A DNA stretch of 64,000 bases from Atriophallophorus winterbourni (Eukaryota; Platyhelminthes; Trematoda; Plagiorchiida; Microphallidae): assembly GCA_013407085.1 (NCBI GenBank), contig JACCGJ010025938.1:62001-126000 (forward strand), in the 5' to 3' direction. The notes beneath the pieces are model-generated. The model was not told the origin of the DNA, made no database searches, and worked only from the letters and a program-made list of their open reading frames with translations. Below are positions 4,658 through 56,307 of the stretch, one piece after another. Position 1 is the stretch's first letter. The number at the start of each line of letters is the position of its first letter. Both the position numbers and the translations under genes were made by a program.

Positions 4658-4840
4658 ATATATACTACTTATCAATAAACTCTGATTTAAGCAAAAATCT
4701 ACCACTGCTGTTATTAGAATGTTGCAAAAATATTCCAAAAAGTTACCACCGCTACATAGCATTTACTTAATTCCCACATGAAAGCTAAATTTCAATTTGC
4801 AAATGAGGATTTATCCTCGTATTCGCAAACTTTAACTGTT
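4658..4840 (+). mobile_element. HZ retroelement body without its ribozyme
   Basis: About 180 bp resembling the body between the two hammerheads at 44.3-44.67 kb, in the ribozyme-sense orientation. Shared blocks include TTTAAGCAAAAATC-like sequence, CTGTTATTxGAATGTTGCA, TTCAATTTGCAAATGAGG and ATTTATCCTCG. It starts just after the place where the ribozyme 3' arm would end, so the hammerhead itself is missing. Confidence 0.6.
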
Positions 4841-29251: not shown

Positions 29252-29466
29252 AAAAGCATTTATGTGCTGTGCGGCTAACATCGTGCTAAATTGATTGGCC
29301 AACGTTAGTGATCTGCATGCTGAAACACGCTGGAGTCTCACTACCATTTCTATTTTTATTTCCCCCTCATATCTGTCTAGGCCTGTGCAACCTGGTAGTA
29401 TCTTAGCCCACGTGCGGTCTCTGACTGTGCGGCACTTTGCCTGGATCAGGCTTGTGCTTTCATAAA
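29252..29466 (+). repeat. SX SINE, near full length
   Basis: Sense copy ending GCTTGTGCTTTCATA. It is followed after about 10 bp by a second copy in reverse. Confidence 0.85.
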
Positions 29467-29474
29467 TAATAAAA

Positions 29475-29690
29475 TGGTACGAAAGCACAAGCCTAATCCA
29501 GACAAAGTGCCGCACTGTCAGAGACTGCATGCGGGCATATTACTGTCAGGTTGCCCTGGCCTAGACAGATATGATAAATAGAGAATAAAGATGGTAGCGA
29601 GACTCCAGCATGTCTCAGCATGCATCCCAATACCCCTGCTATCCGGTTAGCCGAATAGCACAAGTACTGTACAATTGCACATCCGTGCAT
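29475..29690 (-). repeat. SX SINE, near full length
   Basis: Antisense copy; its 3' end faces that of the copy at 29252-29466, forming a large imperfect palindrome. Confidence 0.85.
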
Positions 29691-36878: not shown

Positions 36879-36914
36879 ATGGCAGAGACTGTGTCGGCCG
36901 CAGAACGCTCTCAG
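36879..36914 (+). CDS. Possible first coding exon (very tentative)
   Basis: ATG frame MAETVSAAERSQ ends exactly before CAG|GTGAGT, a strong splice donor consensus. No downstream exon was found on this strand within the window, and I do not recognise the peptide. It could be a chance combination; the frame otherwise reads on to 37097 without homology. Confidence 0.2.
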
Positions 36915-37003
36915 GTGAGTTCTAAAACACCGTCAGCTAGAGGCGTACCGCGACTGCTATCTTTGTTTACTTTAGAATTGCATTCGATTCAAAATATTCA
37001 GTT

Positions 37004-37091
37004 GCATGCTTTTCCGTCATTCACACCCCACGACCCGTTTCGTGCTGTTTGCACTCATCAGGTAGGGACAGTAAGATCAGGATCCGCATGC
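37004..37091 (-). ncRNA. Hammerhead ribozyme (type I, minimal helix III)
   Basis: On the - strand the catalytic core is complete: CTGATGA (37064-37058), helix II GTGC-AAACA-GCAC (37057-37045), GAAAC (37044-37040), then GGGTC before the predicted cleavage site between 37032 and 37031. Helix I is CCCTAC (37069-37064 side) with GTGGGG (37031-37026), six pairs including one G-U. Outer arms GCATGC at 37091-37086 and 37009-37004 can pair. Helix III is very short (AC..GU with a 2-nt loop), as known for hammerheads of Penelope-like elements and retrozymes. It lies about 1.6 kb beyond the SF3A2 stop codon, on the same strand. Confidence 0.8.
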
Positions 37092-42000: not shown

Positions 42001-45000
42001 ATAGAAATACAGCGCACAAAATATGTTCACGTTGTGGGACACTTGTGTAATAAGGTATCAAATAATGGCGTCCTGGCGATCGAATCAAAAGGTTGTCACA
42101 GCCGGGGGTGGTAGTAGGAATGAGCCACCTACTATCTATAAAATGCTCCCACGTGGCGTGCGTCTCAAATAGCCTCTGACAACCAAGTCCAACTCCTGGC
42201 CTGCACGAGTGGCTTTCACAAGCCCGGCGGAACTGCTCTTACTGACAGGAGAAGGGGCGAAGGCGGGTGACTGGCGCCATAAAACCAGTTAGCTCCGGGC
42301 AGATGGAGCTCGTCAGCTACTGGCAATCCATCTAGGGGAAGGAAAACCCTGACTCCAAACCCCCACTGCCTTGTGGGTCACCCGATTGCGGGAAAGGCTT
42401 CGGGAGAAAACCCCGAGGAAAAATCCGGAGAGAAGCCCCGTAGGTAGATAACTAGCGCACAGCGCGTTTATCTGCCAACTCCCTGCTACCTTGTAGGTTG
42501 CACTTGGCTGTGCAAAGGCTAAAGAGGTGTACTCGAACAAACACCAAGTGGTGCTGGGGACATCACTTGTAGGCTATCCCCAAGAAAATTCATGATGATG
42601 TCTCAATCCGAGACATCAATGAAGCCGGCTAATTCACCCGTGGAGCCTGCCGCACAAAAGTAAAAGTAAAGTAAGTAATCAAAAGGATCCTTAAAATAAA
42701 GGAAGAGCGCTACTATGGATAGCATATATGTATGTAGCATATGTATGTTCTGTCTAGGCCTGGGCAACCTGACAGTATCTTAGCCCACGTGCAGTCCTCG
42801 ACTGTGCGGCACTTTGCCTGGATCAGGCTTGTGATTTCATACATACATACATACATACATGATAATGTTCAAGAGCTTGCTGAAGAGTGAATATGCGAGC
42901 GACACATCCTCTACCGAGACGAAATACTGCTTGTTGTTAACGAACTTAGGATTCCCTATGTAACGTTGAAGCAAGAAGTCGAGTAATTGCGGGGTTTCGG
43001 ATCGGCAAGGTTTCCAACGACTAGGTTGTACATCCGACCTTTAGTATGGAGTATTTATGAATGTATGGAATCAAAAGCCTGATTCAGAAAAATTGCCGCA
43101 CAGTCAAAAACTGCAAGCGGGTTAAGATATTGTCAGGTTACCCTGGCCTAGACAAATATGGAAAAAGAAAATAATAATGGCAGTGAGACTCCCGCATGTT
43201 TTCGCATGCAGCTCATTAATGGTGGCAAATCAATTTAGCAATGTTAGCTGCACAGCACAGAAGTGCTGCACGATTGCACATCCGTGCAATAGTGAAGTGA
43301 AGCGAAACATTGCGACGTCGCAATAAATGGCGAAGGTTAGCAAACGTTGCACCTGTTTTGCGTAAACACTGTGAGATCCTAGCCTCAACTAACTCACCAG
43401 CAGAGATACAACTGACGAGGTAAACCAAGCTAAAAACGATTGCTCTATTTACATCACATATAGTGATATTTTAGTGAGATTCGCTCCAGTTTTGGAAATT
43501 TAACAATTGGTAGGTGCAAAGTATGTGACATCTTAAAGCCTTAAATACTGTGTATATAAAAACAGTGAGACCGCTGGTAAAGTGATCTTTTGCTTTATAA
43601 GTTCAAAAGCTAGAGGGTCACAGAGTTAGAACATCTACAAAAGACAACATTTAATAGTTCAGACGTGCATATAGCTGCTTCATATCGCTTGGCACTTTGT
43701 CTGATGATTATGTTGTATATAGCTGTACATGCGTTGTGATTGCACGTGAAATCAAAAATGAAATCGTTTCCTATATACATGTTCTAGCCAGTCAACGTAG
43801 CAAACCAATATTAACGAAAGAAAGTAAGAAACAGAAAATGACGTAAGCTTACCTTATAACCTGGTCTACCGATCTTGACAAATTTCTTGGGTTCAATCTT
43901 CACCTTTTCAGGTTGCAATGTAGCGGGTGCTTCACGAGCTTGTTCAGCAGCACGCCTCTGAAGATTGTACTGATGTTTCTTGCCTATTCGATAGATTTAA
44001 GAAACGGAAGGCTTAATAATCGCTAAGCGCGCCCATATTATGTTTCAAATAATGTTCACATATGGTGACTGCAAAAATGAGCAAGCCTAGCTTCTCAATG
44101 CAAGGTGGGCTTATACTTATATACTCAGTGTATGGTATAAATCCATAAAAAATTCGTCCGAAACCGCTTGCGGAATATGGGTGTGGGGTGTGAGTAACAC
44201 AATGCAACAAGTCAAATTCGGTATCGCTGATATGTTACAAAAAGCGAAAAATAGCATTACAGCTGTTTTTGCTTAAAGTCAGATTTTTATTAATAAGTAG
44301 TATATGACGTTCGAAAAGCAGGACAGAAGCACACGACCGGTTTCGCGGTTATTGCCGCTCATCAGGTGTGCGTATCCGTGGCCTGACATTCGAACGCCGT
44401 TCTGACTTTGTGCTAAATCCATTTATTTGCGAAATCGAGGATAAATCCTCATTTGCAAATTGAAATTTAGCTTTTATGTGGGGACTAATCTAAGTCCCAC
44501 AGTTGGTGCAATGTAGCACCGGTAACTGTTTGGAATATTTATGCAACATTCCAATAACAGCATGATTGTAGTTTTTGCTTAAAGTCAGATTTTTATTAAT
44601 AAGTAGTATATGACGTTCGAAAAGCAGGACAGAAGCACACGACCGGTTTCGCGGTTATTGCCGCTCATCAGCATTACAGCTGTCCTTGGGATGCTCAGCC
44701 ATAATCACTCGTCAATATAACGGGGTTAAAATGCGTAACATCCAGATAAAACGGGTGTGTATACAGTAGCTGTATCATGAAATTAGTTAAAATGGTTTGC
44801 GTTGCCTGAGGCTGCATGTTGCTTGTGACAGTAGCAGGTAGTTCAGGAATAAAATTAACGCGAATTCTAATAATGATTCTTTGGGAATTTTAGAATGCAC
44901 CTCACTATGTATGGTATGAGAACACAAGCCTGATCCATGCAAAGTGCCGCACAGTCAGAGACTGCACGTGGGCTAAGATACTGTCAGGTTGCCCAGGCCT

Positions 45001-48000
45001 AGACAGATGAGGAAGAAAAACGAACAGGAAATAGTAGTGAGACTCCATCCTATTTCAGCATGCAGCTCACTACCTATGGCCAATGAATTTAGCACGGTGT
45101 TAGCTGCACAGCACAAAGTACTGCACGATTGCACATCCGTGCGCCTCACTAGTAGAGATAATGTATGTATGAAAGCACAAGCCTGAACCAGGCAAAGTGC
45201 CGTACAGTCAGACTGCACGTGGGCTAAGATACTGTCAGATTGCCCAGGTCTAGAGAAAGGAAATAGAAAAAGAATAGAATAATTTATAGTGATAAGGACG
45301 GTTTAAAAAGAACAGGAAATACACATAGGCCATACTGCCGAGACGAGAGCTTAACGTGGTGCTTTTCGGGTACCTTCAGAGCCACTCATAACAAAATGAG
45401 AAAAGAATAGAGGTCAGACGAACACGATCTCAACTCAACCCGCTGCCGTGTTGCTCAGGCTTTTTAGCCAAAGGATTTGGCAAGAACCTTAAGTGTTCTT
45501 CTGTCTAGGCATGGTATGGTATGAAAGCACAAGCCTGATCCAGGCAAAGTGCTCCACAGTCAGAGACTGCACGTGGGTTAAGATACTGTTAGGTTGCCCA
45601 GGCCTGGACAGATATGAGAGGGGAAATAGAAATGGTAGTGAGACTCCAGCGTGTTTCAGCATGCAGCTCACTACCGTTGGCCAATCAATTTAGCACGATG
45701 TTAACCGTACAGCACATGTCTAGGCATGGGCGGTATCACCACCCGAATACAACCATGACTATGACTATAACTACAAAAACCAATTCCATTGTGCATCTGT
45801 CATCGCGTAAGATAAACAGGATCGCCTTACTGCTCCAGAAAGCAGGGAGGGTAAACGAAAACATCATAATCATCATCATCAAGCACAAGTCTGGAGCCAG
45901 ACAAAGTGCCAGGCAATACGAAGCAGGAAAAGCAGATAAGGAAGCACGTCATCATCATCATCATCATCACAGACAGCAATACACTGGTAGCGCGTACCGA
46001 ATGATTAACTGCCATACAACCATGAAAAGGTAAAAGTCTAAAAGATGGGGAAGGATGGGACTTAAATTGCTACGGATTCTATAGAAGAGTAAGCACAAGC
46101 AAACTGGGGAGAGGTGCATACACCTCGAATGGAACATACATTCAAACAAGTTTCGTGAACGAGTAGAGCGACATCAGCACGGCAGCTTCCTTGCGGCTTT
46201 CACTGTCATGCATCATAACAAGCTTTTCTCGTCACTCCGCTTGACAACATACAAGGTTAAGCATTATATATTATTATTAATATCACACAAGTCTTTACAG
46301 ACGATGTGCCAACAAGTATACCATGAAGAAGGTACATGATGAAAGAAAAAAGAAAAAAGAGGGGGATTTTTTGTCTGTCTGTTTACACATGCCGTTTTTG
46401 ATCTTTTTTTGTCTTTTTTGGGATAAGGGAGGGGAGGGTCATTGATAAACGGGAACACAAGCACGGCAGGATTCCCGCCACTGGTTCCTATATTTTGCCA
46501 TCACACTGAGTGTTATCAGCCACATATCTTCACGGTTCTTCGGACTCCACCCGGGTAAGCGCGATGTTCCCACGATGGCTAGTGGGGCTGTTAGACGCTT
46601 GAGGGTCTTCCGCCAGTATTTCCTTTGTCCGCCACGGCGACGTTTCCAATCAGGTCCAGCGAGAGCAAAAAGAGCTAGGCGAGGAAGGCGTCGCTCATCC
46701 ATACGGAGAACGTGCCCCAGCCATCTCAGCTGGCACATGGATATATGATCGGAGAGTGGCACAGAGCGATCGCCGAGGACTGCCCTCCTGACGTCATCAT
46801 TTTTGACTTTCTGTTGCCAGCTTAAACGAGCTATACTCCGCAGGCAGCGATGATCAAACGTCGATAATCGTTGACTATCGGCTTGTCGCAGCGTCCACGT
46901 CTCGCAGCCATACAGTAGAACTGCTCGTACGGTGGCCTGGTACACTCTGCCCTTCAAGCGTAATCCAACATCGCGTCGGCGCCACAGATGCCGTAGCCCA
47001 GCGAAAGCATGGCGTGCTCTTGCAATCCGTGCTGTGATTTCAGCTTCGATATCGCCCCCAGTGGTGATGCAGCTCCCTAGGTAGGTGAATCTGTCAGTCA
47101 CTTCCAGTTTATGGTTTTCGATCGTCAAATCAAGTGTTGGGTCTGTCCAATCCTGTAGGAACACTTTGCATTTTGACGGAGAGAAATGTAATCCATACAG
47201 CGACAACTGATCAACGAGTAGATCCAAAGCGCTTTGTATGGCGCAAGCATCCTCTCCGAGGAGAGCAATGTCGTCAGCATAGTCCAGATCCATAACTCGT
47301 CGACCGGGGAGCAGGTCGATCCCACAATTCGGTAGCTGGGCTGTTGCTGCCTGCATGACATCGTCGATCGCAAAGTTGAATAGGAATGGGGAGATCGGAC
47401 ATCCTTGACGAACCCCGCTGGAAATGGTAAACTGCTTGGATAAATCACCATAGGCTTTGACTCTGCCGGTGGTGTGGCAGTACAGCTTCTTGAGTAGGAT
47501 TACGTACTTCAGTGGGACACCATGGCGAATGAGACAGTCCCAGAGAGCGGTTCTGTCAATGGAATCAAAAGCTGCTTGTATGTCAAGAAAGACGATAATT
47601 GTTGGACGTGCGCATTGGCAACGTTGCTCCAAAATTTGGCGGAGCGTGAAGATTTGGTCCACACACCCGCGTCCTCCTCTGAAACCAGCCTGTTCTTCTC
47701 GATACTCTGCTTCGTTAAATAACGAGGTCTCGGCACGCATTTCTAAAGCGACCGTAGCATTCCGCAACCTAGGTCTGCTCTGGCGTCAGAAAGGACTGTC
47801 TCTGCTACTCAAGAGTAGAGTCTATAAAGCGTCAGTGCGGGCTGTGTTACTGTATGGGTGCGAAACCTGGACCTTACGTAAAGAACACATTCAGCGTCTC
47901 CAAGTATTTGACAACCGGTGTCTCCGCAGCATTCTAGGAGTTAGCTGTTACAATTGTATGCGCGCCGATGCTCTCCGAAATAAGTTTTTGGTAGTAATGT

Positions 48001-54000: not shown

Positions 54001-56307
54001 CGGGCGGGATACTGCCAGGTCGCCCATGCCTAGACAGGAGAACAATTAGGGTTCTCGACCAAAGCCTTTGGGTCAGGTTGAGACCGTGTTCGTCTGACCT
54101 CTATCCATTGACCTTCCTGGTATGAGTGACTGAAGGTGCTCGGAGAGCACCACCCAGCATAGCTCAATGGGTCATAGAGGTGCGCAAACCATCGCACCAC
54201 GTTAAGGTCCAGTCTCAGCACGTGAAAAAAGGGAAAGCAGGCAAGCGGAATATGCACAAGCAAATGCGCAAAAAGCAGTTTGTTTTTGTAGTTTCACTGC
54301 ATGCGATTTTGTGGGTTTTTGTTTTTATATATAAAATAATACCGGATAAAAAAAATTATGACACATAATAAAATAGACTAGCGCAACTGACTTCGGTTTG
54401 CAGCCATATCGCGTAAGCTTTCCAGCCAAATAATAGGTGGAGCTTTTGGACCCCACCCAGGCAAACGAATACGCCCAACTGAGCCTAGTGCTACGGTGAG
54501 ATTCCTCATCCCAACGCGCCACCTCATGGACTGGCCACCAGATCGTTTCTCCCAGCTTGTCAGACTCTGCGAATAAGGCGCGGTACGGTAAACGGAGTAG
54601 GCATTCTTAAAACATGTCCCAACCATCGCAAGCGATCAAGCATCAGCATTTCTCTCAGTCCGTGGCCACCTGGTCCTAACACCCGCTTGCAGACATCTAT
54701 ATTTGTAACATGATGCTGCCACCGAATGCCACGACTACCTCGGAATGGCGTCGTTGTAAACGTGGTCAAACTTTGACTTCGTTCAAGCAGACGAAAACGT
54801 TGGCGGTAATATTACCTGCAGTTGGAGCTACCCGTTTCCCGGGTTTGGGGCCAACAATAGGGGACCTGATTGAAACCTTCAAAATCATGTCAGGTTTCAG
54901 TACTATTCATCCCAATGAATTGTTCGCTCTGGCGCCAAGTGTGGGTACTCGAGGCCACCCATTAAAACTGGCCAAGCGACATGTCAGGTTAAATGTTCGT
55001 AAGTTCTTCTTTAGTGAGAGGGTAGTAAATTACTGGAATCGACTTCCTAAAGAAGTTGTTTGTTCTACTTCGGTAGGGATTTTCAAGAATAGACTTGACT
55101 CTGTGTGGCCTTCATTATTTCCTAATTTTTATCCGTAAGGGAATGGTATGAAAGCACAAGCCTGATCCAGGCAAAGTGCCGCACAGTCAGAAACTGTACG
55201 TGGGCTAAGATACTGTCAGGTTGCCCGTAAGGGAAAAGTTGGTATGATCCTCATGTTGTCTTTGGAACGCACTAATGTTTCTCCTCACCTATTGGTGAGG
55301 GGAGTTTTTCTGTTTCATTCCAGATTACTCTCATACCAGAAGATATTTGTGAAGATATTGATTGAAGTGGTGGACGCTCTTCTGTTTCATACCACCGAAA
55401 GAAATCTGGACGCTCGATTGGCTCGTTAGCCACATACAGTCCTGTGCAAACTGAACTGAACTGAACTGAACAGATCAGAATTTAGTCTTTAAACTTTAGA
55501 CGAGGGAAACAGCAAGCTCATCTTGTCCTCAAAGACCAAGATATTTTCAATCGCCGTTTCAATCTGATCAATTGCTACGCTCAAAAATTATACTTAAGAC
55601 ATCTTTGTTCTGACAACACCATCATCATGGAGTACAATGGCAGACAAAACCCTAGCAACATGAAATAGGTAAAGCAAATAAGCAAACGAGCAAAACATTC
55701 GGCAGTCGAACGTAAAGCACGCTGACCACGAAAACGCCGCCAATCAGTCTAAGATAATTACAGCCGAATCGCACTGTGTCGTCTTTTCAAACGCAACGAA
55801 ATATAAGATAATGAGCTAGCGGCATTCACATACGGCATGACCAAAGGAAGCCAAAAACATTTGAACAAAATGCCAGTCTTTGTCCTTAAACTTTAACAAC
55901 ATCGAAATATCAGCCGTAACAATCTATTAAAATAAAATATTCCAAATATTGAATAGATGTTCGTAGCACGAGTTACTTTGCAACTTAATCGACACAAATG
56001 GAGTGGGTGTTAAGATGTTTTATGGTGAGTGCTTAACGTTTATCGAACCGCAGAAATATTGATTTAAATATAATTTGTACAAACCTTGTGTATGTGCTAG
56101 GTAGCTTCCCTCATTGTTGTGTAAGGTTAAGCAGAGTTTGCATTCATATGTTCCAAGGTGATTTTTCATAAAATAAGGATCTTTGTTCAAATCAATGGTA
56201 TCCAATGCAAGTTGCCTGAGACGTTCACGACGATCGCGATTAGCTTCCGCTTCCGAAGCCACTCCACCCGATCCTGTTTTGCCACCAACACGATGCTGGA
56301 AATCCAT
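38685..56307 (-). CDS. SF3A2: Splicing factor 3A subunit 2 (SF3a66), complete gene of four coding exons
   Basis: Subunit of the SF3a complex of U2 snRNP, needed to form the 17S U2 particle and the prespliceosome; nuclear. Coding exons on the - strand: 56307-56085, 43983-43853, 40091-39813 and 39077-38685, with GT..AG introns of about 12.1, 3.76 and 0.74 kb, giving 341 codons. Residues 1-74 start MDFQHRVGGKTGSGGVAS and hold the matrin-type C2H2 finger (CKLCLTLHNNEGSYLAHTQG, finishing KKHQ in exon 2). Exon 2 carries the basic linker with KFVKIGRPGYK; exon 3 the conserved core QIDYPEIAE ... PRHRFMSAYEQRVEPPDRRWQYLL. Exon 4 is a proline-rich tail (runs of 6-12 Pro), much shorter than the human tail and lacking its VHPPAPG heptads. 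Phases agree at all junctions. Introns are full of LINEs, SX and HZ. Confidence 0.95.
39078..39812 (-). other. SF3A2: SF3A2 intron 3
   Basis: 735 bp, GT..AG (donor GTTAGT, acceptor CGACAG). No repeat family recognised; the only SF3A2 intron without obvious transposons. Confidence 0.8.
39813..40091 (-). CDS. SF3A2: SF3A2 coding exon 3
   Basis: 279 nt, 93 codons, starting VTKQKDPDTGQQS and ending VKQFYLQ. Acceptor TTTTCTAG, donor GTTAGT. Most conserved part of the protein; compared with vertebrates it has IERIV where they have GI, a small insertion. Confidence 0.95.
40390..40625 (+). repeat. SX SINE, diverged
   Basis: Nearly full-length sense copy in SF3A2 intron 2, with GTGCTGTTTGGCTAACACTG and TGTCTAGGCCTGGTCAAC. 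Confidence 0.75.
40880..41940 (-). mobile_element. FN-LINE group I 3' part, interrupted by SX
   Basis: On the - strand, RT remnants (41940-41580, with blocks equal to the 51390-51480 region of the group I LINE such as GTCAATATCCTGTAA) lead into the group I 3' UTR (41360-41100) and tail (40900-40880). Heavily mutated. Lies in SF3A2 intron 2. Confidence 0.65.
40899..41113 (-). repeat. SX SINE with 15-bp target-site duplication
   Basis: SX (40914-41098) between AGCATTACAC[C/A]GGTA repeats at 40899-40913 and 41099-41113, one mismatch. Inserted in a group I LINE 3' UTR. Confidence 0.9.
42083..42686 (+). mobile_element. Non-autonomous RTE-leader module with 10-bp target-site duplication
   Basis: 584 bp (42093-42676) between direct repeats AATCAAAAGG at 42083-42092 and 42677-42686. 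The first about 420 bp match the RTE 5' leader from its first base; the last part (ATGATGATGTCTCAATCCGAG ... AAAAGTAAAAGTAAAG) is not in the full-length RTE and ends in an A-rich AAAGT-type tail. No coding capacity. It looks like a SINE-sized passenger built from an LINE leader. Confidence 0.75.
42750..42862 (+). repeat. SX SINE, 5'-truncated, with CATA tail repeat
   Basis: 3' half of SX followed by a tandem CATA tail (42838-42860), clear evidence that this end is the 3' tail. Confidence 0.88.
43060..43290 (-). repeat. SX SINE, near full length, diverged
   Basis: Antisense copy in SF3A2 intron 2... position upstream of exon 3 and downstream of exon 2 in gene order. Confidence 0.8.
43291..43852 (+). 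other. Unassigned part of SF3A2 intron 2
   Basis: About 560 bp. 43290-43440 weakly resembles the FN-LINE connection region on the - strand (an AFANLRHLLRRRNVSL stretch); the rest up to the exon 2 donor is unassigned. Confidence 0.45.
43853..43983 (-). CDS. SF3A2: SF3A2 coding exon 2
   Basis: 131 nt, encoding the end of the finger (GKKHQYNLQRRAAEQAREAP) and KFVKIGRPGYK. Acceptor ATAG before 43983, donor GTAAGC after 43853. Too short for a simple frame scan; found from the conserved SF3A2 sequence. Confidence 0.93.
44309..44395 (-). ncRNA. Hammerhead ribozyme 1 of HZ, complete
   Basis: Core on the - strand: helix I strand GCACAC, then CTGATGA (44365-44359), helix II GCGG-CAATAA-CCGC, GAAAC, helix III ACC/GGU with no more than a 2-nt loop, C as the cleavage residue at 44335, and the returning helix I strand GTGTGC (44334-44329). 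Cleavage predicted between 44335 and 44334. Helix I extends outward by an internal loop to GTTCGAA/TTCGAAC (44395-44389 with 44315-44309), the region where loop contacts usually speed cleavage. Confidence 0.88.
44615..44671 (-). ncRNA. Hammerhead ribozyme 2 of HZ, 5'-truncated
   Basis: Identical core, helix II, helix III and 3' arm to copy 1, but the element starts at the first core base, so the 5' strand of helix I is replaced by target DNA (GTAATG). It probably cannot fold an active helix I in this position. Confidence 0.85.
44912..45146 (-). repeat. SX SINE, near full length
   Basis: Antisense copy in SF3A2 intron 1 with intact 3' stem-loop and internal hairpin. Confidence 0.88.
45163..45256 (-). 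repeat. SX SINE, 5'-truncated copy
   Basis: 3' half only, antisense, close to the previous copy. Confidence 0.8.
45280..45857 (+). mobile_element. FN-LINE 5' leader, isolated, split by SX
   Basis: Matches the leader of the group I LINE (54228-53840, - strand): GAGGTCAGACGAACACG, CTCAACxxxACCC, TAGGCATGGGCG, ATACAACCATGAC and GATAAACAGGxTCGCCTTAC. No coding region follows; it runs into a LINE 3' end at 45858. Confidence 0.65.
45502..45729 (-). repeat. SX SINE with 13-bp target-site duplication
   Basis: SX (45515-45716) between perfect repeats TGTCTAGGCATGG at 45502-45514 and 45717-45729, inside the LINE leader. Confidence 0.94.
45858..45949 (-). mobile_element. FN-LINE group J 3' end
   Basis: On the - strand: CTGCTTTTCCTGCTTCGT, then GGCACTTTGTCTGG and CTCCAGACTTGTGCTTGATG with a GAT repeat tail. 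Same 3' end as at 15575-15660. Carries the stem-loop compared with SX. Confidence 0.75.
45950..46258 (-). mobile_element. FN-LINE group I 3' UTR with GAT tail
   Basis: Reverse complement of 48325-48627, over 300 bp, ending in tandem GAT (45953-45969). It includes CTTGTATGTTGTCAAGCGGA and GCATTCGGTACGCGCTACC. Confidence 0.85.
46439..47713 (-). pseudogene. Group H LINE RT, C-terminal 400+ codons
   Basis: Uninterrupted frame: YREEQAGFRGGRGCVDQIF, FLDIQAAFDSIDR (catalytic Asp), GVRQGCPISPFLFNFAIDD, YADDIALLGEDA (catalytic), YGCETWTLRQADSQRL, LRWLGHVLRMDERRLP, RLPGWSPKN and a stop at 46439. The apparent N-terminal codons before YREEQ come from the inserted group I LINE. The best-preserved FN-LINE RT in the window. 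Confidence 0.88.
47701..48637 (+). mobile_element. FN-LINE group I copy, 5'-truncated, with 13-bp target-site duplication
   Basis: 911 bp (47714-48624) between GATACTCTGCTTC repeats at 47701-47713 and 48625-48637. It carries the end of the RT (SARISKATVAFRNLG, YGCETWTLRKEHIQRL, LRWLGHVLRMPDHRLPK in a second frame), a stop near 48320, the 3' UTR and a GAT tail (48609-48627). Close to the group I LINE at 50.7-54.2 kb. It lies antisense to its host LINE. Confidence 0.9.
48638..49392 (-). pseudogene. Group H LINE linker and RT N-terminal part
   Basis: Frames 49392-49105 and 49207-48545: VRELITEADGSLITNRERRMDRWREHFASQF, RRRKAPGLDELPAELF, VFKKGWRKECGNHRGISLIPVVSKL. The frame runs past 48638 into the inserted element (HHHHHQRQQY from the GAT tail), which is not part of the LINE protein. 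Confidence 0.82.
49411..50470 (-). pseudogene. Group H LINE endonuclease
   Basis: Frames 50470-50039, 50002-49754 and 49800-49411. Motifs: FKLAAFNVRTLRQTG, DICCLSETRLHD (catalytic Glu), DWLYVNSRLCTVRLGG, IAAYAPTDCSVD, VILAGDLNARVG, TQIDHIAISYRWRSS and SDHALVCANL. Two small frameshifts (near 50020 and 49760) break it; catalytic residues are present. Confidence 0.85.
50525..50735 (-). mobile_element. RTE-type leader fragment
   Basis: Reverse complement of part of the RTE leader (CTCCATCTGCCCGGAGCAAAC, GGCGCCAGTCAAGC on the + strand). It lies exactly between LINE groups H and I. Confidence 0.7.
50740..52628 (-). pseudogene. Group I LINE reverse transcriptase (two frames)
   Basis: 52628-51609: linker (ITEIDGT-like, LITNKNRRLSRWAEHFEEQF), FKAAGPDDIPPVLFKEGG, IFKKGVRSSCSNHRGISL, EQQAGFRPGRGCVDHIF, FKGAFDSVDR and GVRQGCPISPFLFNF; a frameshift near 51620 then gives 51645-50740 with YADDIVMLFDS (catalytic), VLLQDIDISNSTLLL, FTYLGSCINSSASLDDEV, YGCETWTLRKEHIQRL-like CGCETWTL and LPGWCPRDQ. 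One frameshift separates it from an intact RT. Confidence 0.87.
52650..53710 (-). pseudogene. Group I LINE endonuclease, decayed
   Basis: Recognisable pieces on the - strand: 53248-53012 with MNARLGRL (end of the GDMNAR loop), LGGMFGLEGQRTDNGERF, ITTWRSPDGS and AQIDHIAIS. Upstream parts are scattered over three frames. Non-functional. Confidence 0.7.
54230..54745 (-). pseudogene. FN-LINE group J, C-terminus and part of 3' UTR
   Basis: On the - strand: RGIRWQHHVTNIDVCKRVLG, GGHGLREMLMLDRLRWLGHV, then RRSGGQSMRWRVGMRNLTVA and RIRLPGWGPKAPP with a stop near 54380, followed by the group J 3' UTR to 54230. Same order as in the copy at 14700-15560. Confidence 0.75.
54746..55143 (+). pseudogene. 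Chimeric LINE frame: FN-LINE C-terminus joined to CR1-like C-terminus
   Basis: One open frame (to stop at 55138) whose first part (about 54746-54860) reads like the FN-LINE end (RGQTLTSFKQTKTLAV, ATRFPGLGPT) and whose second part (from about 54864) is the CR1-like end (GDLIETFKIMSGF, KFFFSERVVNYWNRLPKEVV). Likely an accidental in-frame junction of two fragments. Confidence 0.65.
55133..55235 (-). repeat. SX SINE, 5'-truncated, with 11-bp target-site duplication
   Basis: 81-bp SX 3' part (55144-55224, antisense) between CCGTAAGGGAA repeats at 55133-55143 and 55225-55235. The target is the stop codon region of a CR1-like LINE. Confidence 0.92.
55236..55475 (+). mobile_element. CR1-like LINE 3' UTR with ACTGA tail
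   Basis: 3' UTR of the CR1-like LINE (GGACGCTCGATTGGCTCGT, CACATACAGTCCTGTGCAAA) ending in GAACTGAACTGAACTGAAC (about 55450-55470). Confidence 0.75.
55476..56084 (-). other. SF3A2: Proximal part of SF3A2 intron 1, no recognised repeat
   Basis: About 600 bp directly after exon 1 in gene order. Only a short ATCATCATGGA stretch near 55620 recalls the group I LINE tail. Confidence 0.5.
56085..56307 (-). CDS. SF3A2: SF3A2 coding exon 1
   Basis: 223 nt. ATG at 56307-56305 chosen because it begins the invariant MDFQHR N-terminus; the frame is open further upstream but that part is not conserved. Ends CACAAG before GTTTGT, splitting a Gly codon in the zinc finger. Confidence 0.95.

Follow-up and report, generated by a model that had tools for sequence, protein, structure and literature searches.

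Metazoan non-LTR retrozymes are the closest described systems to the element reported here. In the main text of Cervera and de la Pena 2020 (PMC7229834), they are described as carrying a type I hammerhead ribozyme in a unit of 170 to 400 nt with a GC content below 45%, as tandemly arranged, lacking a long terminal repeat (LTR) and flanked by target-site duplications (TSDs) of more than 4 bp, and as having a stable self-paired unit; platyhelminths are among the hosts. The same text proposes a route from circular RNA to tandem cDNA in which copying is primed by target DNA or by a small RNA and LINEs or Penelope-like elements act as helpers, and a 2024 review, in the part available, repeats the primed-circle hypothesis. 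Which retrozyme RNA form is copied to DNA, and by whom, is stated as hypothesis in the available text of the retrozyme papers. Other hammerhead-bearing systems resemble the element in part, namely schistosome SMalpha/W-elements (about 335 bp with a very short stem III, as described in the available text of PMC8490949), Penelope-like elements and amniote intronic hammerheads.

A hammerhead-bearing insert in intron 1 of SF3A2

The window analyzed here, meaning the whole stretch of 64,000 nucleotides from the trematode Atriophallophorus winterbourni, contains a short insert with the following features:

44254..44266, plus strand: target-site duplication, RNA-sense 3' copy, GCATTACAGCTGT, identical to 44671-44683
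44267..44670, minus strand: insert of 404 bp, a 306-bp unit plus 98 bp, with the minus strand as RNA sense
44267..44274, minus strand: site A, AAGCAAAA, the RNA-sense 3' end of the insert
44312..44386, minus strand: complete type I hammerhead, found by cmscan (RF02275, Hammerhead_HH9, 44.5 bits) and by pattern scan
44425..44430, minus strand: site B, GCAAAT, unit positions 211-216, internal in this copy
44618..44670, minus strand: 5'-truncated hammerhead, beginning at CUGAUGA and keeping helix II, the GAAA box and the cleavage site 44641/44640
44671..44683, plus strand: target-site duplication, RNA-sense 5' copy, GCATTACAGCTGT, identical to 44254-44266

At an offset of 306 the insert matches itself at 101 of 101 positions without a mismatch (44265-44365 versus 44571-44671), a self-match also found by blastn, and its identity to other genomic copies reaches up to 97%. 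The duplication measures 13 bp, or 14 bp if one A at 44253/44670, shared with the insert, is counted. The 306-nt unit has a GC content of 40.2%, and the open reading frame list of the window holds no frame of 150 aa or more at the insert, the threshold at which the earlier statement of no protein frame applies. Given the identical overlap and the target duplication, we interpret the sequence as a single insertion that looks recent. The first-pass annotation had described about 1.3 units of a non-autonomous, hammerhead-bearing element with its own target-site duplication, in agreement with the 306 + 98 bp and the GCATTACAGCTGT copies on both sides.

The complete hammerhead has an E value of 3.9e-8 for the whole window (cmscan, RF02275), a predicted cleavage site at GGTC^GTGTGC between 44335 and 44334, and a helix III formed by the palindrome ACCGGU. 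The truncated hammerhead lacks the 5' strand of helix I, which is mispaired in its model match (RF02275 at 44618-44688; 25.4 bits; E of 0.055 for the window and 4.7e-4 for 551 bases). Thus, of the two identical minus-strand cores reported earlier, the 306-bp spacing was correct and the equivalence was not, since the motif at 44.6 kb is without that strand. The covariance-model check proposed at the same time gave an RF02275 match with a significant window E for the complete copy that did not reach the Rfam cut-off; because both insert hammerheads score below the gathering score of 52, a default Rfam search at gathering thresholds is empty. Scanning with a strict type I pattern gave 2 hammerheads in the window versus 0 in 100 dinucleotide shuffles, and exact-pattern scans of viral contigs and of prokaryote genomes found nothing.

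Folded as a 306-nt circle, the unit reaches -103.0 kcal/mol versus -57.8 +/- 4.9 for 100 shuffles (z of -9.2). In a plain energy model, which leaves out hammerhead tertiary contacts, the hammerhead is 4.4 kcal/mol less favorable than a shifted pairing; the near-zero probability calculated for helix I arises because the preferred fold is register-shifted. The palindromic helix III would, as expected, fit a ribozyme that works better as a dimer, for which a newt hammerhead with better activity as a dimer is a precedent (available text of PMC6155905).

The insert lies within the splicing-factor gene SF3A2, of which three exons were placed:

56085..56307, minus strand: SF3A2 exon 1 (PDB SF3A2 match, E 1.9e-43; splice site)
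43853..43983, minus strand: SF3A2 exon 2 (in-frame join)
from 40091, minus strand: SF3A2 exon 3 (PDB SF3A2 match)

The encoded protein is 90% identical to tapeworm proteins, with candidates restricted to proteins up to 1.75 times the length of the query. Intron 1 spans 12.1 kb and, because the SF3A2 exons are on the minus strand, the insert sits in it in sense orientation; the cleavage site of the complete hammerhead is 351 nt upstream of exon 2. We take HH9 (RF02275) to be one of the amniote intronic hammerheads. As the best Rfam model for a ribozyme lying sense within an intron, it likens the insert to that group. Unlike the amniote hammerheads, which are conserved according to the available text of PMC6155905, the window copy would be a recent mobile insertion. 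An insert taken over as an intronic regulator of SF3A2 could account for the sense orientation, the intact core and the 351-nt distance to exon 2, and the conserved amniote hammerheads show that such intronic ribozymes exist (PMC6155905, same text); however, the insert looks recent and is one of at least 210 genomic matches, and we consider this reading extremely improbable.

A family of dispersed and arrayed copies

A search of the assembly (537 Mb, 15,840 contigs) returned at least 210 genomic matches to the insert, both dispersed and in 306-bp arrays; this number is a lower bound because 40 of 1883 first-look candidates were scored. Two checks suggested by the first-pass annotation, for other copies of the 306-bp unit and for tandem multimers elsewhere in the genome, were therefore both positive. 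The window itself holds a further relative:

4660..4829, plus strand: older diverged copy of the 306-bp unit, without the ribozyme, covering unit positions 30-215 and ending at site B

This copy is identical in 155 of 187 aligned columns, 18 of which are gaps, and was left out of the 43 counted 3' ends described below. Among 27 inserts with both ends mapped, length ranges from 0.54 to 20.8 units, and the array in C1232, which is cut by the contig end, contains 31 cores.

The core with GTC is intact in 87 of 109 complete units, a set biased to intact cores because it was anchored on the cut site; it comprises 100 distinct units, some doubly counted via overlapping loci, and one false anchor. 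Over 99 distinct units, sequences depart from the majority at 3.1% per site; covariation among them was uninformative at this divergence and gave no significant result. The hammerhead core diverges by 1.7% versus 3.3%, and because 11% of windows are equally low, selection on the core is without support.

These features place the family beside the metazoan non-LTR retrozymes: a type I hammerhead (with its RF02275 score below the gathering score), a 306-nt unit of 40.2% GC without an open reading frame of 150 aa or more, many genomic copies, tandem copies, a TSD of 13-14 bp, no LTR, and a highly self-paired unit RNA. All of them are known from retrozymes and therefore, judged from its sequence, the insert is a new family of this known kind, with the signature of its ends as the new part. 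The 306-bp unit is not named in the available text of PMC7229834, in contrast to which two fixed start sites and inversions are mapped here.

Penelope-like elements likewise bear tandem type I hammerheads with minimal helix III (available text of PMC6155905 and PMC7761336), and the unit could on this account be the terminal repeat (pLTR) of such an element, not an independent retrozyme. Unlike them, the insert has no large frame and shows no pLTR-ORF-pLTR layout; with no frame of 150 aa or more, it encodes no Penelope-like reverse transcriptase of its own, and in arrays of 5-30 units the unit sequence runs on unbroken. We therefore regard a pLTR as unlikely. The schistosome SMalpha/W-elements are similar in a flatworm host, a type I hammerhead and a distribution both dispersed and satellite-like, and the 335-bp, SINE-like hammerhead element of Schistosoma offers a model of similar size in the same phylum (available text of PMC8490949). 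By the descriptions in that text, the insert differs insofar as neither a tRNA part nor a convincing polymerase III promoter was found: ARAGORN found no tRNA, and the A-box-like and B-box-like matches are weak and start 19 nt apart. A tRNA-derived SINE transcribed by RNA polymerase III is also improbable in our judgment.

Insert ends and the copied template

To place the ends of independent copies, we examined 65 loci, drawn from all 40 contigs among the matches listed. Twenty loci were dropped because they were parts of arrays already covered by other loci, and three more because they share flanks with another copy: on visual inspection L041 and L048 have the 25-nt flanks of L040, and L052 has those of L051. 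Ends lying at the edge of a contig or locus were also left out, as was the 5' end of L063 (a run of N). End positions were entered by hand, and the 3' end of L001 was set at 70 from its target duplication, the aligned position being 88.

The RNA-sense 3' ends are confined to a few places. Forty-three were placed, window copy included, with 26 at site A, 16 at site B and 1 at a third, CAAA-like tract at unit 189; two internal CAAA tracts (unit 62-80 and 212-224) thus account for 42 of the 43. Site A ends (following ...CTGACTTTAAACAAAA) fall at unit 66-72 in 22 of 26 cases and otherwise at 62, 75, 75 and 80; site B ends (following ...CTCGAAATCGCAAAT) fall at 212-219 in 15 of 16 cases, with one (L002) at 224. 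The densest 11-nt interval holds 24 of the 43 ends, versus a maximum of 10 in 5000 uniform simulations, and none of the 43 mapped 3' ends is at the ribozyme cut. The locus list was ranked by match to the 404-bp insert; this favors lengths near 400 nt and may also favor site A. Inserts of 710 nt or more, by contrast, contain all 404 nt whatever their phase, and of the 14 such inserts whose 3' end was placed, 6 end at A and 8 at B. The predicted circle leaves site A unpaired and puts site B at the foot of a hairpin, with unpaired A's after it; further accessible A-tracts, at unit 47, 98 and 166, are unused as 3' ends.

The outer 5' ends (n = 28, inner ends of inversions excluded) are scattered, and neither a scan test (P = 0.25) nor a Rayleigh test (P = 0.61) detects significant clustering. 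The earlier suggestion that the 5' end at CUGAUGA might tell how the RNA was opened therefore finds no support across copies. A stop site at the core, considered because of 5' ends at 276, 277, 278, 283 and 286, was rejected as not significant, and the ranking favors such ends.

Five inserts (L005, L009, L032, L037 and L039) are head-to-head inversions. Both outer ends are A or B sites in L009, L032, L037 and L039, and in L005 one outer end is at A and the other at the third tract. TSD-like repeats of at least 7 bp flank 18 of 34 inserts versus 14 of 102 swapped-flank controls; among those 18, L016 and L033 are artefacts inside unit sequence and L052 duplicates L051. Recognizable target duplications measure 7-14 bp and occur in about half of the inserts, a clear one being absent in about half.

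In L005, one inverted segment has its inner end at the ribozyme cut (unit 1), and the join there shows an overlap of 3 nt. It is the sole mapped end at the cut and possibly reflects run-off at a cleaved RNA.

We consider it highly probable that the insert is one insertion of a non-autonomous, non-coding non-LTR retrozyme copied by primed reverse transcription at internal CAAA tracts. Starting from what is directly observed in the copies (3' ends that are fixed and 5' ends that are free, target duplications, inversions and read-through of the cut site), the following course may be proposed. Transcripts of tandem copies would be cut by the hammerhead and the monomers ligated into circles, as in described relatives. 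A reverse transcriptase supplied in trans, LINE-type or Penelope-like, would then act by target-primed reverse transcription, using a nicked chromosomal 3' end as primer. Copying would start at one of the two internal CAAA tracts, the start sites marked by the ends, and would run round a circle or follow an uncut multimer over a variable distance (0.5 to more than 20 units). It would have no fixed stopping point and would leave behind a target duplication of 7-14 bp; priming from both target ends (twin priming) would sometimes produce the head-to-head inversions. For the window copy, synthesis would have begun at site A and gone past the ribozyme cut site twice, unbroken, before stopping after 404 nt.

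A linear, ribozyme-released monomer is hardly the template, because such a monomer ends at the cut; the data fit a circle or an uncut multimer in which the cut sites are intact. Described biology of relatives (available text of PMC7229834 and PMC4918200) leads us to favor the circle slightly. Under the competing account, an array already in the genome would be transcribed into a linear multimer that served uncut as template, the ribozyme having simply failed to act; this explains the intact cut sites and lengths above one unit just as a circle does.

Variation within arrays bears on this choice. Of 9 arrays, 7 contain variants at 20% or more, and in each of these 7 the variants outnumber the mean of pooled-unit controls. 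These scattered shared variants are expected from a polymorphic array read as a linear multimer; they speak against a single-circle origin of every array and point to templates that were polymorphic, or to exchange at a later time, in some of the arrays. Against the linear multimer, in 8 of 9 arrays (all but C1232) a unit is closer to units of its own array than to those of other arrays, and both copies in the window insert are identical across 101 bp. We give the linear multimer considerable weight, somewhat short of an even chance. Neighboring units are closer than non-neighbors in 7 of 9 arrays, by at most about an eighth, and this slight effect, together with the closeness within arrays, fits copying from one template. 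Array variants comprise 486 transversions versus 333 transitions, an excess that may reflect misalignment or assembly error.

Arrays such as that in C1232, with up to 31 cores, and the blocks of shared variants seen in C4214 could also arise in ordinary satellite DNA that spreads and changes length through unequal crossing-over without an RNA step. This account is contradicted by short inserts that are dispersed, carry target duplications and have their 3' ends at two fixed sites, and the neighbor effect is limited in both number of arrays and size; we judge it very unlikely as an explanation of the family, and crossing-over may resize arrays even so.

Returning to the primed-retrozyme reading, dozens of mapped copies record the positions at which copying started. 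In their signature, 3' starts are fixed at two positions and 5' ends are free, inversions have a start at each outer end, and the ribozyme cut coincides with neither a 3' end nor an outer 5' end. It can be searched for in any retrozyme-bearing genome, making the template question testable by end counts. Mapped insertion ends or head-to-head inversions were not found in the main text of PMC7229834, and insertion-end mapping was not found in the available text of PMC7229834, PMC4918200, PMC8490949, PMC7761336, PMC6155905 and PMC11722881. More tentatively, and leaning against it on balance, we raise the possibility that the circle has two internal entry sites for LINE-type, target-primed rolling copying that is independent of the cut, single events laying down arrays of many units and satellites being born in one insertion and not by recombination. 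If true, this would suggest a one-step origin of tandem satellites.

Neighboring proteins, other ribozymes and repeats

For a reverse transcriptase near the insert, the named flatworms among the best 120 matches are mostly flukes, and a Gypsy protein resembles both fluke and tapeworm proteins. The best two matches to 46439-47764 (P0001 and P0002), as well as P0019 and P0073, are reverse transcriptases labelled Streptococcus dysgalactiae or Fusobacteriaceae. They are on contigs of 2-4 kb and show a 55-64% match to the flatworm LINE; they are probably flatworm contamination of bacterial assemblies. At 36880-36915 (plus strand), ATGGCAGAGACTGTG...CAG followed by GTGAGT looks like the first coding exon of a plus-strand gene.

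The strict pattern also found a hammerhead that is absent from the first-pass annotation:

37026..37067, minus strand: second type I hammerhead, unrelated and single copy in the window, CTGATGAGTGCAAACAGCACGAAACGGGTCGTGGGG (RF00163, 32.4 bits)

Its score is below the RF00163 cut-off of 34, with an E of 3.8e-4 for the window. Similar motifs are present in L071, L074 and L078, so that it may belong to a common dispersed repeat. A genome-wide RF00163 scan gave at least 32 matches, at least 27 of them over the cut-off (74 of 96,317 candidates scored), and no RF00163 matches were found in 14 control genomes. Eight RF00163 loci (L071-L078) share a second hammerhead family with cores like GCTGATGAGCTCAAATAAGAGCGAAACTCGAGTC and variants of it, which occurs as head-to-head inverted pairs in L071, L072 and L075; these loci appear to form a second retrozyme-like family.

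A dispersed repeat of about 95 bp is present on both strands at 44906-45000 and at 20 other places in the window (matches of at least 80 bp). Where the repeat forms an inverted pair, at 29379-29562, weak mir-1972 matches fall on both strands.
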